Source: Sphingobacteriales bacterium (GTDB lineage Bacteria; Bacteroidota; Bacteroidia; Chitinophagales; CAIOSU01). Taken from it: 52,942 nt of DNA. Both the position numbers and the translations under genes were made by a program. Position 1 is the first letter of the stretch; the number at the start of each line of letters is the position of its first letter. The notes below the pieces were generated by a model. The model had not been told where the DNA came from, ran no database searches, and was given only the letters and a program-made list of their open reading frames with translations. Location of the stretch: positions 1-52,942 of the forward strand of contig JAIXOI010000005.1 in NCBI GenBank assembly GCA_027486795.1, read 5' to 3'. This document shows positions 5,806-35,995 of this stretch, one piece after another.

Positions 5806-6454
5806 ATGCCAAAATATGCCATACACGACCATGCCGAGCGGCATTATATGACCTTTCAGATTATCGGTTGGGTCGATATTTTTACGCGCCAGCGTTACAG
5901 GGATATAGTGCTGGAAAGCTTTACGTATTGCCGTGCCCATAAAGGCCTAGAATTGAATGCTTATGTGATAATGAGCAACCACATACACTTGATAATAGCA
6001 GCTAAGCACGGAAACCTTGGCGACGTAGTGCGCGACCTGAAAGCACATACAGCCAGGCAGATACTGGCATCGGTGCAGCAAGAACCAGAAAGCCGAAGGG
6101 AATGGATGCTGTCGGTTTTTAAGTATGCTGCAGGCGGCCATAGCCGTAACACCCATTACCAACTTTGGACACACGAGAACCATGCGGTTTTTATGAACCC
6201 AATGATACCCGAAATGTTCGCGCAACGGCTTAACTACATTCACCAGAACCCTGTAAGGGCTGGGTTAGTTGCCCAGGCTGATGAATACTTATATAGCAGC
6301 GCAGCTAACTACACGGGCAAGGGTGGCCTGATTGAAATAGATGCGCTTTTGTAGCTGTACCACCCACTCGTGTTTCCGCTAAGGCGGAAAAGTAGGCACA
6401 GCCTACCTTTATCAGTTGCACGTAGGCCTGAAATAGCCTACACGCAGAATGGGG
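5609..6454 (+). mobile_element. Complete RAYT (IS200-like) element
   Basis: About 846 bases bounded by imperfect inverted repeats of about 86 bases (5609-5696 and 6369-6454). Each arm carries three hairpins: CGTAGGC/GCCTACG with an 8-base loop, a middle stem (GAGGC/GCCTC on the left; GTAGGC/GCCTAC on the right), and TTCCGC/GCGGAA. One intact transposase gene lies inside. Elements of this type move as single strands recognised through end hairpins and are not expected to make target duplications; none is obvious. Two shortened copies follow at 7059 and 8206. Confidence 0.85.
5806..6354 (+). CDS. REP-associated tyrosine transposase (Y1 HUH family)
   Basis: A 182-residue single-strand transposase. 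The HUH motif is MSNHIHLI (about residues 57-64), in which the two His residues bind the metal. Typical RAYT features follow: a long helix region with QLWTHENHAVFMN, then the conserved FAQRLNYIHQNPVRAGLV. The catalytic Tyr should lie in this last region, where a Tyr is present in LNYIHQNP. The length fits the family (about 150-220). It sits alone between hairpin-rich inverted repeats, its probable substrates. The ATG at 5806 opens the conserved fold. It looks intact. Confidence 0.93.
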   Translation: MPKYAIHDHAERHYMTFQIIGWVDIFTRQRYRDIVLESFTYCRAHKGLELNAYVIMSNHIHLIIAAKHGNLGDVVRDLKAHTARQILASVQQEPESRREWMLSVFKYAAGGHSRNTHYQLWTHENHAVFMNPMIPEMFAQRLNYIHQNPVRAGLVAQADEYLYSSAANYTGKGGLIEIDALL

Positions 6455-14488: not shown

Positions 14489-14681
14489 GGTAAAATGCGT
14501 TTAAAATTTTAAGCTCCTGACTTCAAGGCATGTCATCCTGAGTCTCGTTTGAAACGAGATCGAAGGGTGCGCGCGTTGGCTGTTCGGACGAGTGGGAAAC
14601 ATACAAAATCAAGCTCAATTCTCGCACGAGCAACCCCCTCCCAACCTCCCCCTAAAAAGGAGGAGGAGCTTAAAACTCAAT
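14489..14681. repeat. Intergenic repeats: GTCATCCTGAG hairpin and CCTCC/GGAGG element
   Basis: TGTCATCCTGAG is followed by the 17-base hairpin TCTCGTTTGAAACGAGA (14543-14559) and TCGAAGGG. A second small element with CCCCTAAAAAGGAGG lies at 14632-14668, similar to the stretch at 34041-34071. Confidence 0.65.
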
Positions 14682-15344
14682 TCATTCCAACTTCATTTCA
14701 GGTATCTCGCCTTCTACTAGTAATCTTCCAGCAGTAGCCTTTTTAATCTCCTCTACAGACACGCCAGGGGCACGCTCTAGCAGTTTAAATCCACCACTGT
14801 TGGGCAGTACGTCCAGCACAGCCAGTTCGGTTACTATGCGCTTTACCACGCCAAGGCCCGTAATGGGCAAGGAGCATTCAGGCAAAAGCTTGCTCTCGCC
14901 TGCTTTGTTTTGGTGCATCATGGCTACGATGATGTTCTCGGTGCCGGCCACTAAGTCCATAGCACCGCCCATGCCTTTTACCATTTTGCCCGGAATCTTC
15001 CAGTTGGCAATGTCGCCGTTTTCGGATACCTCCATAGCACCCAGCACAGTAAGATCAATATGACCGCCGCGAATCATGCCAAAGCTAAAGGCCGAATCGA
15101 AGAAGCTGCTGCCCGGCAAGGTAGTAACGGTCTGTTTACCCGCATTTATCAAGTCGGCATCTACTTGTTCCTCAGTAGGGAACGGCCCCATACCCAGCAA
15201 CCCGTTTTCGGAATGCAGGGTAATGTCGATGCCATCGGGGATATAATTTGCCACCAGCGTTGGGATGCCGATACCAAGGTTTACGTAGTATCCGTCCTTC
15301 AACTCCTGTGCAATGCGTTTCGCGATTCCTTCTTTGTTCAACAT
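14682..15344 (-). CDS. scoB: Succinyl-CoA:3-ketoacid CoA-transferase subunit B
   Basis: A 220-residue beta subunit. [19 protein letters not shown] is the N-terminal signature and [13 protein letters not shown] carries the catalytic Glu (Glu46), which forms the enzyme-CoA thioester. The C-terminal half ([36 protein letters not shown]) is typical. With subunit A it moves CoA from succinyl-CoA to acetoacetate. The subunit A gene lies upstream on the same strand at 15804-16496, but about 460 bases with a four-helix-bundle gene separate them, which is unusual because the pair is normally adjacent. A word array ends about 12 bases before its ATG. Confidence 0.95.
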
Positions 15345-15355
15345 AGTCTTAAATT

Positions 15356-15390
15356 ATGTACCAATGTGCTAATGTACCAATGTACCAATT
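15356..15390 (+). repeat. 8-base-word array, left arm of an inverted pair
   Basis: ATGTACCA, ATGTGCTA, ATGTACCA, ATGTACCA, ATT in exact 8-base steps. The reverse complement of 15770-15804 matches it at 32 of 35 bases; all three differences are A/G changes at the last position of a word. Confidence 0.9.
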
Positions 15391-15395
15391 CTTTA

Positions 15396-15755
15396 TTATT
15401 GGATGATTTTCTTTTTTGACGTGGTAATTATTTTTCCCAAAACCTTATCAATTGCTTGCAGCTGTGTAATTAGGGCAAGGGAAGATGGATAACTTTCAGA
15501 GCGCTCACATAGCATTAGCCAATACTTAGTCTCGTTTGCCTCTTTACCAGCAATCTTAAGTTTATGAACAAAATCCACTTTGCTTTCCGCATTCTGTGCC
15601 TCCCAAACATTTGCCCCTACTGATGTACCACTTCTTAATAACTGACGAGCAACCACATACTTGCGCCTCTCTTCAAGTAACTCACAGAATTTAATTATCT
15701 CTAGTGAGAACTCGAATGTGAGGTTAACAATAAGATTTTCCTTTTCCGCTGTCAT
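15396..15755 (-). CDS. Four-helix-bundle protein (S23/IVS, Avd-like family)
   Basis: A 119-residue all-helical protein of the family found in 23S rRNA intervening sequences. Typical are FSLEIIKFCELLEERRKYVV, the turn QLLRSGTSVGANVWEAQNAE, KLKIAGKEANETKYWLMLCE and a basic Lys-rich tail (TTSKKKIIQ). Family members form homopentamers and are structurally related to Avd, the partner of reverse transcriptase in diversity-generating retroelements; no reverse transcriptase is in this window. The gene interrupts scoA-scoB and is bracketed by inverted 8-base-word arrays only a few bases beyond its ends, so it looks like a mobile cassette. Function is unknown; nucleic-acid binding is inferred. Confidence 0.88.
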   Translation of the reverse strand: MTAEKENLIVNLTFEFSLEIIKFCELLEERRKYVVARQLLRSGTSVGANVWEAQNAESKVDFVHKLKIAGKEANETKYWLMLCERSESYPSSLALITQLQAIDKVLGKIITTSKKKIIQ

Positions 15756-15769
15756 TATTGCATATTTTC

Positions 15770-15804
15770 AATCGGTACATTGGTACATCAGCACATCGGT
15801 ACAT
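15770..15804 (-). repeat. 8-base-word array, right arm of an inverted pair
   Basis: Read on the minus strand: ATGTACCG, ATGTGCTG, ATGTACCA, ATGTACCG, ATT. Its outer base is the first plus-strand base of the scoA stop triplet (15804-15806), so the array begins exactly where scoA ends. Confidence 0.9.
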
Positions 15805-16496
15805 CACTTGCGTGTAGTTCTCTGCTCAATCCGCTTCTCATAATTAGCTCCTTGGAAAATGCGCTGCACAAAAATGCCGGGCGTGTGTATTTCGTTGGGG
15901 TCCAGTTCGCCGGGCTGCACCAGTTCTTCCACTTCTGCAATGGTTACTTTGCCAGCCGTGGCCATCATGGGGTTGAAGTTGCGGGCTGTGGCCTTGAAAA
16001 CCAAGTTACCCATAGTGTCGCCTTTCCATGCCTTTACAATAGCAAAATCGGCAGTAAGGCTTTGCTCCATGATGTAGTTTTTGCCATCAAACACCTTTAC
16101 TTCCTTACCCTCGGCCACTTCGGTACCATAGCCCGTAGCGGTATAAAAGGCAGGGATGCCCGCGCCACCGGCCCGTATCTTTTCGGCAAGGGTGCCTTGT
16201 GGGGTAAGCTCTACTTCCAACTCGCCGGCCAATAGTTGACGCTCAAACTCGGCATTCTCGCCCACATAGCTGCTTATCATCTTCTTTATCTGACGGGTTT
16301 CGAGCAACAAACCCAGCCCAAAACCATCCACCCCGGCATTGTTGCTGATGCAAGTAAGGCCCTTTACACCTTTTTTTACCAAGGCCGTAATACTGTTTTC
16401 GGGTATGCCACACAGGCCAAAACCACCGAGCATAATGGTGGCGTTGTCGGGTATGTCGTGTATCGCCTCATCGGCGTTGCGGAACACTTTTTTCAT
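15804..16496 (-). CDS. scoA: Succinyl-CoA:3-ketoacid CoA-transferase subunit A
   Basis: A 230-residue alpha subunit. [17 protein letters not shown] is the glycine-rich CoA-transferase signature, and [20 protein letters not shown] and [20 protein letters not shown] are typical. With ScoB it activates acetoacetate at the expense of succinyl-CoA, linking ketone-body or leucine breakdown to the TCA cycle. It is first in the operon order. Its stop codon shares a base with the octamer array that opens the four-helix-bundle cassette, and the C-terminal [13 protein letters not shown] looks undamaged, so the insertion spared the protein. Confidence 0.95.
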
Positions 16497-16531: not shown

Positions 16532-16626
16532 ATGTATCGATGTGCTAATGTGCTGATGTGCTAATGTGCTGATGTGCCGATTTACCAATTTACCGATGTG
16601 CTGATTTGACAATGTACGATGTGCTG
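16532..16626 (+). repeat. Long 8-base-word array upstream of scoA
   Basis: Twelve words in a row: ATGTATCG, ATGTGCTA, ATGTGCTG, ATGTGCTA, ATGTGCTG, ATGTGCCG, ATTTACCA, ATTTACCG, ATGTGCTG, ATTTGACA, a 7-base ATGTACG, ATGTGCTG. It begins 36 bases upstream of the scoA start. Confidence 0.9.
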
Positions 16627-16700
16627 GTTGGTTTTGACTTGGACATTCAGGCACCCGTCATTACAAAAAATGGCTACGAGTTTTTCTCGAGGTATTATTT

Positions 16701-16951
16701 TGGAACGCCCCAAAGGGGCACTATACCCTAGCGTCGGGCACCGCCCGACGAACAGGATGCGTTTCCGGAAACACGTTGCGTTCATAGGGTGTTGCCCCAA
16801 TGCCAAAATGGATTATCACCGTTGCAGAAACCGTTTTGACGAGTATCATTTGGAACGCCCCAAAGGGGCATCATACCGCTAGCGTCGGGCACCGCCCGAC
16901 GAACATGATGCGTTTCCGGAAACACGCTGCGTTCATCGGGCGTTGCCCCAT
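16701..16951. repeat. Tandem pair of hairpin-rich repeats
   Basis: Two copies about 150 bases apart (16701-16799 and 16851-16951) share GGAACGCCCCAAAGGGGCA, CTAGCGTCGGGCACCGCCCG, GATGCGTTTCCGGAAACACG and GCGTTCAT...GTTGCCCCA. Each has three strong hairpins (GCCCC/GGGGC, GTCGGGC/GCCCGAC, GTTTCC/GGAAAC). The sequence between copies is only loosely repeated. Confidence 0.85.
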
Positions 16952-16992
16952 GCTATTATTATGCGACCCCGTTGGGATCAAAAGGAATGGAA

Positions 16993-17433: not shown

Positions 17434-17460
17434 TAAATTTTAAATTTTTCAATCCCAAAA

Positions 17461-17516
17461 TTGTACATCGTACCTCGTACTTCGTACATAACTCTTGATA
17501 CTGACTTCGTACATTT
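17461..17516 (+). repeat. 7-base-word array forming the yggS leader
   Basis: TTGTACA, TCGTACC, TCGTACT, TCGTACA, an 18-base interruption, TCGTACA, then TTTGTAAG and the ATG at 17522. The array fills the space between the divergent lipoprotein gene and yggS. Confidence 0.8.
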
Positions 17517-18207: not shown

Positions 18208-18352
18208 GTCATTCCGACCTTTTCGGGAGGAAACCCTTTGCACCGATGAACTACCCTTAAATTACTTAATTCCTCCCTCAATTTAGGTTTATTGCTTCGT
18301 GCACACCCTGCTCCGTTTTTAAACAGTCCCCTCCCGAAAAGGTCGGGGTGAC
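18208..18352. mobile_element. Small element with GTCATTCCGACC ends, next to a GIY-YIG gene
   Basis: About 145 bases bounded by 23-base inverted repeats: GTCATTCCGACCTTTTCGGG at 18208 and its near-complement at 18330-18352 (21 of 23 match). The interior has no gene. The end sequence recurs alone at 13547-13574. The GIY-YIG gene begins 72 bases to the right. Confidence 0.65.
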
Positions 18353-18424
18353 ATACGTTTTGAATAAAAAACCAACTAATATAGTTGTGAAATAAAATTC
18401 ATTATTTTAACAAAAAAAATAGCG

Positions 18425-18724
18425 ATGCAACACAATTATTACGTGTACATTACTACTAACTCTGACAAAGAAGTACTTTACACAGGAGTAACCAACAACT
18501 TATTGAGAAGGATTATCGAACATCAAGAAAATAGAGGTGAAAAAAGGACCTTTGCTGGTAGGTATTTTAGTAACAAATTGGTTTACTATGAACATTTTAC
18601 TGATATAGTTGCGGCGATAGCAAGAGAAAAACAAATCAAAGGCTGGCGAAGGGAGAAGAAAATAGCCTTAATAGAATCCATGAACCCCGATTGGAATTTT
18701 TACGACCCCTATAATTTTGCCTAG
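18425..18724 (+). CDS. Small GIY-YIG endonuclease-domain protein
   Basis: A 99-residue single-domain protein of the YhbQ/UPF0213-like group. YYVYITTNSD is the GIY strand, VLYTGVTNNLLRRIIEH the YIG strand with the conserved Arg, YYEHFTDIVAAIAREKQIK the catalytic-Glu helix region, and WNFYDPY closes the fold. It has no extra DNA-recognition domain. Such genes are often scattered near intergenic repeats; here an inverted-repeat element lies directly upstream. The gene is AT-rich compared with its neighbours, suggesting recent arrival. A role in moving or copying the adjacent repeat is speculation. Confidence 0.88.
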   Translation: MQHNYYVYITTNSDKEVLYTGVTNNLLRRIIEHQENRGEKRTFAGRYFSNKLVYYEHFTDIVAAIAREKQIKGWRREKKIALIESMNPDWNFYDPYNFA

Positions 18725-18754: not shown

Positions 18755-18780
18755 TTGAATTTTAAATTTTCAATTCCTTT
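18755..18780 (-). repeat. 7-base words TTGAAAA/TTTAAAA/TTCAAAA
   Basis: On the minus strand TTGAAAA, TTTAAAA and TTCAAAA follow each other in 7-base steps. The same three words start the array at 30119-30146 in the other orientation. Confidence 0.6.
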
Positions 18781-25352: not shown

Positions 25353-25429
25353 TTGCAACTATGTTTGGGTGGTTCGCAAACGCGGGCCCATCTATTCTTC
25401 CTTGGGCCTTTGCCTTTTTTAGCTACCAT

Positions 25430-25461
25430 TTCCAAATTAGCACATTAGCACATTTTCAAAT
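25430..25461 (-). repeat. 8-base-word array in the ychF promoter region
   Basis: On the minus strand: ATTTGAAA, ATGTGCTA, ATGTGCTA, ATTTGGAA. It ends 8 bases before the ychF -7 box, so it supplies the -33 region. Confidence 0.85.
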
Positions 25462-25469
25462 TAAGACGT

Positions 25470-29293: not shown

Positions 29294-29324
29294 TTTGGAA
29301 ATGTGCTGATGTGCTGATTTGAAA
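29293..29324 (+). repeat. 8-base-word array starting at the hflX stop codon
   Basis: ATTTGGAA, ATGTGCTG, ATGTGCTG, ATTTGAAA in 8-base steps. The first A is the last base of the hflX TAA. Confidence 0.88.
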
Positions 29325-30107: not shown

Positions 30108-30118
30108 TTTTTTTTGAA

Positions 30119-30225
30119 TTGAAAATTTAAAATTCAAAATTTAAAATTGGCTTTTCAATTCACATTATTCCTTAAATCGTACTTCGTACCTCGTAAATCG
30201 TACATTGTAAATCGTACCTCGTACA
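30119..30225 (+). repeat. Two 7-base-word arrays upstream of the enoyl-CoA hydratase
   Basis: First TTGAAAA, TTTAAAA, TTCAAAA, TTTAAAA, TTGGCTT, TTCAATT (30119-30160). Then seven exact steps at 30177-30225: TCGTACT, TCGTACC, TCGTAAA, TCGTACA, TTGTAAA, TCGTACC, TCGTACA. Confidence 0.88.
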
Positions 30226-35870: not shown

Positions 35871-35995
35871 AGGTACGACTTACGATTTGTAGTTCCTGAA
35901 TTTAATGACATTGATTTAAACCATAAGTGCAATCGTAATTCGTAATTCGTAATTCGTAATTCGTAAATCGTAATTCGTAAATCGTACCTCGTACT
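35871..35995. repeat. 7-base-word arrays upstream of the deoxyhypusine synthase homologue
   Basis: Nine exact words fill 35933-35995: TCGTAAT four times, TCGTAAA, TCGTAAT, TCGTAAA, TCGTACC, TCGTACT. A short inverted group (TCGTAAG, TCGTACC on the minus strand) lies at 35871-35887. The array ends 24 bases before the -7 box. Confidence 0.9.

Follow-up and report, generated by a model that had tools for sequence, protein, structure and literature searches.

An IVP gene between octamer arrays in the scoA-scoB operon

The window analyzed here is a stretch of 52,942 nt (contig C38 of a 3.90-Mb draft genome in 59 contigs) from a Sphingobacteriales bacterium, and it raises the question of what a gene for a small four-helix-bundle protein, enclosed by short repeated words in inverted orientation, is doing between scoA and scoB. 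The gene (positions 15396 to 15755, minus strand, 119 amino acids) belongs to the S23, or 23S rRNA-intervening-sequence protein (IVP), family, with scores of 73.6 bits against PF05635 (cutoff, 33.8) and 87.2 bits against TIGR02436 (cutoff, 24). Together with its arms it forms an element (15351 to 15809, minus strand) that fills the spacer between the upstream host gene scoA (15804 to 16496, minus strand; TIGR02429, 276.5 bits) and the downstream host gene scoB (14682 to 15344, minus strand; TIGR02428, 320.8 bits). IVP is the sole gene of the element, and no transposase or recombinase is encoded.

A 40-nt inverted repeat, 88% complementary, brackets the IVP gene. In the sense of the gene, the 5′ arm (15770 to 15809, minus strand) is an array of ATGTRCYR octamers that overlaps the scoA stop codon, and the 3′ arm (15351 to 15390, minus strand) is the inverted array, located just ahead of the scoB start. 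An earlier note on this DNA had described two inverted 35-nt arrays matching at 32 of 35 positions, and remeasurement of this locus (L066) returned the same count and coordinates, 15356 to 15390 and 15770 to 15804. On the left, the core stops 5 nt short of the IVP stop triplet (15396 to 15398) and is separated by 11 nt from the scoB start, whose ATG ends at 15344; the right core starts 14 nt past the IVP ATG (15753 to 15755), and its last base falls in the scoA stop triplet (15804 to 15806). The octamer pattern, searched as three words, had 30 matches in the window genome and none when read backwards, placing its abundance above chance.

Other repeats flank the two host genes. After scoB, further repeat-like DNA containing inverted parts of its own (GTCTCGTTTGAAACGAGA; CCTCCCCCTAAAAAGGAGGAGG) occupies 14520 to 14680, and similar stretches are present in two congeners (G002 and G003) at what we take to be an aminotransferase site. 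Upstream of scoA, a stretch at 16690 to 16970 occurs in two tandem copies with the palindromes GCCCCAAAGGGGC, CGTCGGGCACCGCCCGACG, and TTTCCGGAAA.

The AlphaFold model of the window IVP is a four-helix bundle (mean pLDDT, 92.4). The best PDB matches came from two entries, 2rld and 2gsc, with five chains each and query-normalized TM-scores of up to 0.84 and 0.79, respectively, and the protein is accordingly modeled as a four-helix bundle like those pentamers. Chains of diversity-generating retroelement (DGR) ribonucleoproteins (8ub7 and 8ub8) and Avd (4dwl) were lower matches (E ≥ 0.05), ranked after or among unrelated helical bundles. The kinship with rRNA intervening-sequence proteins and Avd suggested from the sequence was thus upheld by Pfam and by fold. 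A pentamer has been stated for a Xanthomonas S23-family protein, and the same source states no known function for S23/IVP proteins (PMC4990558); a resemblance of PF05635 to Avd has also been mentioned (PMC10053308). The median dN/dS was 0.10 for pairs with finite dS among 147 nonindependent pairs, with one pair at or above 1, indicating maintenance of the IVP protein by purifying selection.

Inverted arms bracket IVP genes across genomes

The window genome contains five IVP genes (L001 to L005), all with inverted arms (scores of 27, 27.5, 29.5, 15.5, and 24) and each with a different word. PF05635 matches were present in 52 of 60 relatives. A custom HMM seeded with the IVPs of the window genome yielded a first set of 91 full-length IVP genes, 86 of which were flanked on each side by 140 nt or more and could be tested. 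A gene was considered bracketed if the best local inverted match between its flanks scored at least 14. By this measure, inverted arms were found at 61 of 86 IVP genes but at only 15 of the 509 other genes located on these stretches, and the controls were also low (direct orientation, 13/86; dinucleotide shuffles, 7/430; mispaired flanks, 26/1,282). The remaining 25 of 86 IVP genes had no arms at this threshold.

Because the threshold of 14 was chosen after the first loci had been inspected, the test was repeated on a second set of loci. This set represents the window's IVP subfamily in named genomes, taken as the best 80 of 553 confirmed, of which 78 had both flanks; almost all of these best 80 are from Bacteroidota, and one Bifidobacterium breve record (L242) may be a binning error. 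The two sets overlap at two loci by protein (L204 is L147, and L195 is L146). Among the best 80 of 553, inverted arms were present at 57 of 78 IVP genes, compared to 6 of 112 other genes, 3 of 390 shuffles, and 10 of 78 flank pairs in direct orientation, and 21 of 78 lacked arms at the threshold. Mispaired flanks from these best 80 of 553 reached a score of 14 in 248 of 1,159 cases and were rejected as a null, since words are shared within the subfamily. The proposal that the IVP gene and its inverted arrays form a cassette therefore holds as a general rule (61/86 in the first set; 57/78 in the second, best 80 of 553). Comparison across genomes, which had been suggested as a check, gave an association above that of other genes in both sets, and the opposite outcome, no association in related genomes, was sought but did not appear.

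The 15 bracketed control genes include one Y1-transposase-like gene (L117, 6892 to 7405) and one GIY-YIG-like gene (L148, 14242 to 14608), both labels being assigned from sequence. Small genes other than IVP may also form cassettes. Insertion in rRNA was considered as an explanation for the IVP genes sampled here and rejected, as a search of 16 of the 91 full-length loci returned no Rfam matches.

Word, word length, polarity, and orientation

In 116 of 118 bracketed elements, each arm is built as an array of a 7- or 8-nt word, comprising 59 of 61 in the first set and 57 of 57 in the second (best 80 of 553). The best period in the first set was 7 or 14 in 41 of 61 elements and 8 or 15 in 18 of 61, and shuffled first-set arms gave one of these four periods in 19 of 61. 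Within the window's own subfamily (second set, best 80 of 553), the period was 8 in 56 of 57, with words such as AATTTGAA and GATGTGCT. Median arm length was 32 nt, equivalent to 4.4 words (59 elements); the median element was 487 bp (61 elements).

A simple SGTSIGA-like motif rule for word length proved leaky, with 7 motif-bearing proteins of the first set having period 7, and word length was therefore tested on a protein tree. Across the 116 bracketed elements, the period label changed 9 times on the tree, compared to at least 27 times in 200 shuffles. The first-set tree alone (59 rows) also showed 9 changes (shuffle mean, 15.5) and is only suggestive because the shuffle minimum equals the observed value. 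Word length thus follows the lineage of the IVP protein. Arm similarity fell with protein identity: 59% of pairs at 70 to 80% protein identity had an arm score of at least 14, compared to 13% at 50 to 60% identity and none of the pairs sampled below 30%. The word is specific to the element.

The arms also have a polarity. In the sense of the gene, first-set 5′ arms contain 37% A, 7% C, 24% G, and 32% T, with G exceeding C in 54 of 61 and the reverse in 4 of 61; in second-set 5′ arms (best 80 of 553), C falls to 5.5%, with G above C in 54 of 57 and below it in 3 of 57. The base counts indicate a strict polarity in which the C-poor strand of the word runs with the gene. Function of the arrays as all-frame stop codons was considered and set aside: 24 of 61 first-set 5′ arms had stops in three frames, a weak signal next to a mean of about 15 of 61 in shuffles and 10 of 61 in reverse complements.

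Elements are also seated in a preferred orientation. The upstream neighbor was codirectional with the bracketed IVP gene in 58 of 61 first-set and 55 of 57 second-set cases (best 80 of 553). Both neighbors shared the sense of the IVP gene in 51 of 60 and 50 of 55 cases, respectively, and both opposed it in 1 of 60 and 2 of 55 (second set again the best 80 of 553), against a baseline in long stretches of 370 adjacent gene pairs on the same strand and 126 on opposite strands. Random insertion between codirectional genes would leave half of the elements antisense, indicating that sense seating is either imposed or selected.

Turnover at fixed genomic sites

Presence or absence was compared at four sites in genomes of the same genus or family. 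ScoA and ScoB of three congeners (G001 to G003) are 92 to 99% identical to those of the window, yet the window element is missing or replaced in each. G002 and G003 carry another IVP element between scoA and scoB, with the word ATTTGAAA and an IVP 55 to 56% identical to that of the window and 70% identical to the L003 IVP of the window genome, and G001 has no IVP match in a spacer of about 135 nt. In a wider survey, scoB was matched in 32 of 40 genomes and 30 loci were taken, of which 23 gave readable spacers (7 had no scoA match). None of the 19 spacers read outside the genus, one of them (L073) partly masked, contained an IVP gene. Eleven of these 19 spacers do not exceed 35 nt, and inspection by eye shows stretches resembling arrays in a few of them (e.g., L076 and L078). 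The unit had been suspected of being inserted, and sites without IVP were indeed found in relatives; the contrary pattern, the gene present at this site in all relatives, was sought and not seen.

Three other sites behaved similarly, and the names given to their host genes are presumptive. At what is presumably a PaaB-PaaC-like pair, the L001 element is present in the window genome and G002, a different IVP element is present in G003, and another inverted repeat without an IVP gene is present in G001; arrays at this site share bases with the stop codon of the upstream gene and reach the next start codon or stop a few bases short of it. At a presumed malate-synthase/isocitrate-lyase-like pair, the same element is found in the window genome, G002, and G003, with none in G005 and with different downstream genes in G001 and G004. 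At the presumed aminotransferase site, the window genome has an IVP element, and G002 and G003 have a heptamer array of another word and no gene. Two sites thus hold different IVP elements in species of the same genus, and spacers at the compared sites are replaced whole between genomes. What congeners hold at a fixed site ranges from the same element through a different one to gene-less arrays or no element at all, and the presence/absence at orthologous sites that is typical of transposons and MITEs is apparent at all four.

Individual spacers had further features. The malate-synthase-site elements of the window genome and G003 (L168 and L169) are nearly identical, with 4 coding differences, while the genes upstream of them diverge by about 6%, which would fit a recent exchange of the element side. 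The 3′ side of the G003 scoA-scoB spacer (L067) contains a tandem duplication of about 90 nt with ATTTTCAA-like words that is absent from G002, suggesting that arrays also grow in larger steps. In G001, the scoA-scoB spacer (L069) has CACGAAGGGCGCAAAG/CTTAGTG-type words and the PaaB-PaaC-like spacer (L323) has a GTCATTGCGAGGAACGA-type inverted pair, each without an IVP gene.

Gene-less arrays

The earlier note had also counted five other places in the window with the element's words and no gene. Such places exist, and when at least two tandem words of the element's type were required, four were found, counted at 16540, 17369, 25438, and 29301. They comprise an array of the element's word family upstream of scoA (16540 to 16608, plus strand), another that matches arms of its own genome (17368 to 17402, plus strand), an octamer array containing words of both the ATGTGCTA and the ATTTGGAA type (25428 to 25462, minus strand), and two tandem ATGTGCTG words (29301 to 29316, plus strand). 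The window also carries gene-less period-7 arrays of other words: three have the GTACGA-type word of the window genome's L005 element (17460 to 17487, 30177 to 30224, and 35933 to 35994, all minus strand), and one (30117 to 30148, unstranded) resembles the L001 arms by eye. A gene-less inverted pair, GTCATTCCGACCTTTTCGGGAGG ... CCTCCCGAAAAGGTCGGGGTGAC, lies at 18209 to 18354; just downstream is a small open reading frame (18425 to 18724, plus strand), which we take from its sequence to be GIY-YIG-like, followed by an AAATTTT-type array near 18757.

Three-word matches to the octamer family numbered 30 in the window genome; 15, 8, 11, and 6 in four congeners; 1 in G005; and 11 in G033; the remaining 53 of 60 genomes had none. 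To count arrays of any word, tandem arrays were scored by period with IVP regions masked, comparing periods 7 and 8 with six other periods at a score of 15. Eight IVP-less genomes (652 kb) had 0 arrays of period 7 or 8 and 6 of the other periods, compared to 5 and 1 in eight IVP-rich genomes (348 kb), 25 and 5 in stretches around IVP genes (663 kb), and 7 and 0 in the masked window. At a score of 12, the IVP-less genomes had 4 and 24, again no excess of period 7 or 8, although these data points are not independent because three of the eight genomes come from one family. Gene-less arrays of period 7 or 8 are thus common in IVP-rich genomes, and the IVP-less genomes sampled have no more of them than the background level.

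At a score of 13, 63 arrays were collected, at least two of which are unmasked IVP arms (L132, 10394 to 10424; L149, 10348 to 10385); 44, mostly intergenic, were submitted for matching to IVP arms and 43 were scored, with the L001 arms left out of the matching set for too little flank. For 23 of the 43, the fit to IVP arms from the same genome surpassed that to 95% of foreign arm sets of equal size. In outline, these matches and the lack of excess in IVP-less genomes agree with the suggestion that gene-less copies behave as a nonautonomous family. In all five gene-less inverted pairs identified by eye (two in L130 and one each in L134, L149, and L151), the C-poor arm came first. The arrays themselves had no sense preference, 13 running with both neighbors and 18 against them, two listed arrays being unmasked IVP arms.

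These orientations bear on whether the system is a transferable posttranscriptional regulator, in which an IVP ring would bind arrays near stop and start codons and tune operon genes, with the gene-less arrays as its regulon. Arrays do adjoin stop and start codons, the IVP protein is under purifying selection, and translational regulation has been proposed for TAACTGA heptamer arrays near start codons (PMC4679880). We nonetheless regard a regulator as unlikely, given that gene-less arrays lie in both orientations, that whole elements are exchanged at one site between congeners, and that the host genes at the four examined sites share no evident function.

Candidate helper enzymes

Two enzymes were considered as helpers. 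Matches to RVT_1 were present in 19 of 60 relatives and absent from 41 (mostly drafts), and the window genome had one, on another contig (C40). None was found in G001 to G006, all of which have IVP matches and which include the four congeners. Dependence of IVP elements on reverse transcriptase was rejected by this distribution. A retroelement in which IVP acts in the manner of Avd, relies on a reverse transcriptase provided in trans, and moves via sense RNA is very unlikely: similarity of fold to Avd and the DGR chains and sense-only seating in operons are what such a retroelement would predict, but the IVP-bearing relatives G001 to G006 (genomes here being mostly drafts) have no RVT_1 match and arm differences are not limited to one base.

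Y1 transposase matches were found in 42 of 60 relatives, including the window genome (6 matches), and were absent from 18 (mostly drafts). Bracketing was seen at 59 of 79 IVPs in Y1-positive genomes and at 7 of 14 in Y1-negative genomes (Fisher P = 0.11). A requirement for Y1 was rejected on the basis of these 7 of 14, with the caveat that absence from a draft is not certain. Y1 may help disperse gene-less arrays, since 6 of the 8 IVP-less genomes also lacked Y1 and arrays were scarce in Y1-less IVP-bearing genomes (260 kb; 3 of period 7 or 8 and 3 of the six other periods together). Within the window, a weak Y1 transposase match (E = 3.9e−7) lies at 5881 to 6141 (plus strand).

The prevalence of Y1, the higher proportion bracketed alongside it, and the few arrays where it is missing would all fit arrays made by Y1 (RAYT/IS200-like) transposases, or by general slippage, with IVP genes hitchhiking. 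This origin seems quite unlikely, as clear arms occur in genomes without a Y1 match (L327, L328, L329, L331, L332, and L050), 180 kb of the Y1-positive, IVP-less genomes G026 and G050 contained 0 arrays at a score of 15, word length tracks the IVP protein, and genes other than IVP are rarely bracketed. Neither search, nor the element itself, provided an enzyme for element movement.

RNA level and proposed mechanism

The sense RNA of 15345 to 15812 has a predicted folding energy of −136.8 kcal/mol (z score, −5.1) with the arms paired, compared to −109.4 kcal/mol (z score, −3.9) for the antisense RNA. By predicted fold, the window element thus has at its ends the stem-forming inverted repeats that characterize an intervening sequence (IVS). 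All three mismatches in its arm core (L066) are G·U in sense RNA, but this pattern is not general. Selection for sense-RNA pairing was rejected, as arm mismatches that are G·U in sense versus antisense numbered 64:54 in the first set and 51:68 in the second (best 80 of 553), a null result in both. This parity weighs against a strict requirement for an RNA stem, and arm pairing may serve without fine selection.

At the level of sequence comparison, these data establish the bracketed unit, its generality, a word-length lineage, polarity, site turnover, gene-less relatives, and purifying selection. These are probably minimal mobile intervening-sequence elements of about 0.49 kb, in which an IVP gene lies between inverted arrays of an element-specific word and the IVP pentamer reads its own word. 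Such an element would be seated in sense between codirectional operon genes and express its gene by readthrough from the host operon, which would explain its orientation. The arms would form a stem in the transcript that could be cut by RNase III, as in an rRNA IVS, allowing the operon to tolerate the insert. The pentamer would bind the array, perhaps with one word per subunit, as arms contain about 4 to 5 words; such binding would make propagation word specific and let gene-less arrays of the same word spread. The DNA step would fall to host enzymes, possibly by recombination or template switching at the arrays.

A wider reading can be offered only tentatively: these could represent a mobile class that encodes neither a transposase nor a recombinase nor a reverse transcriptase, in which a 5-fold ring protein recognizes about five copies of a short word, the length of that word (7 or 8) is inherited with the protein lineage, and recognition plus host enzymes propagates both the cassette and gene-less arrays. 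If true, this class of ring-protein elements would be a source of heptamer and octamer arrays in many bacterial genomes.

Comparison with known systems

The literature consulted, as far as its available text extends, knows S23/IVP from rRNA interruptions; here it marks a widespread, operon-dwelling element of Bacteroidota. None of the best-matching open-access titles and abstracts connects S23/IVP genes with inverted arrays of words at sites other than rRNA. The element is real and general, with no earlier description found among those titles and abstracts. Its grammar is readable as word, word length, polarity, and orientation, making testable the binding target of S23, the origin of dispersed heptamer and octamer arrays, and whether a ring protein reads two word lengths.

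The nearest relative is the 23S rRNA IVS of Coxiella burnetii, described as an S23p open reading frame inside stem-forming inverted repeats, 428 nt long compared to a median of 487 here, with tandem GACAGAT heptamers upstream of S23p and an RNase III site at the first repeat (PMC4990558). Unlike that IVS, the elements here lie between protein genes (scoA and scoB in the window) rather than in 23S rRNA (0 Rfam matches in 16 loci), their arms are arrays of element-specific words, and gene-less arrays are dispersed. The IVP gene here is under purifying selection, whereas S23p is said to decay in Coxiella (PMC4990558).

Intergenic 7-nt tandem arrays (TAACTGA and others) are also known from Beggiatoaceae, Cyanobacteria, and Bacteroidetes, where they are sometimes missing between the same genes in close relatives, and, according to a speculation by their author, the mobile element may be a protein that binds the repeats (PMC4679880). 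The portion of that report available to us describes neither a link to S23/IVP genes nor inverted bracketing, and words here can also be 8 nt.

Two further systems share part of the design. REP sequences and REPINs are short dispersed sequences, single or in inverted pairs, with a related single gene (RAYT); the elements described here differ in that their gene encodes no transposase, their arms are built of repeated 7- or 8-nt words, and bracketed IVPs occur also without a Y1 match. Avd of DGRs (4dwl and 8ub7) has the four-helix-bundle fold in common with IVP, but by distribution no reverse transcriptase is needed here. Located outside rRNA, and separated from DGRs by the reverse transcriptase and from RAYT systems by Y1, the element is nevertheless IVS-like in its anatomy.
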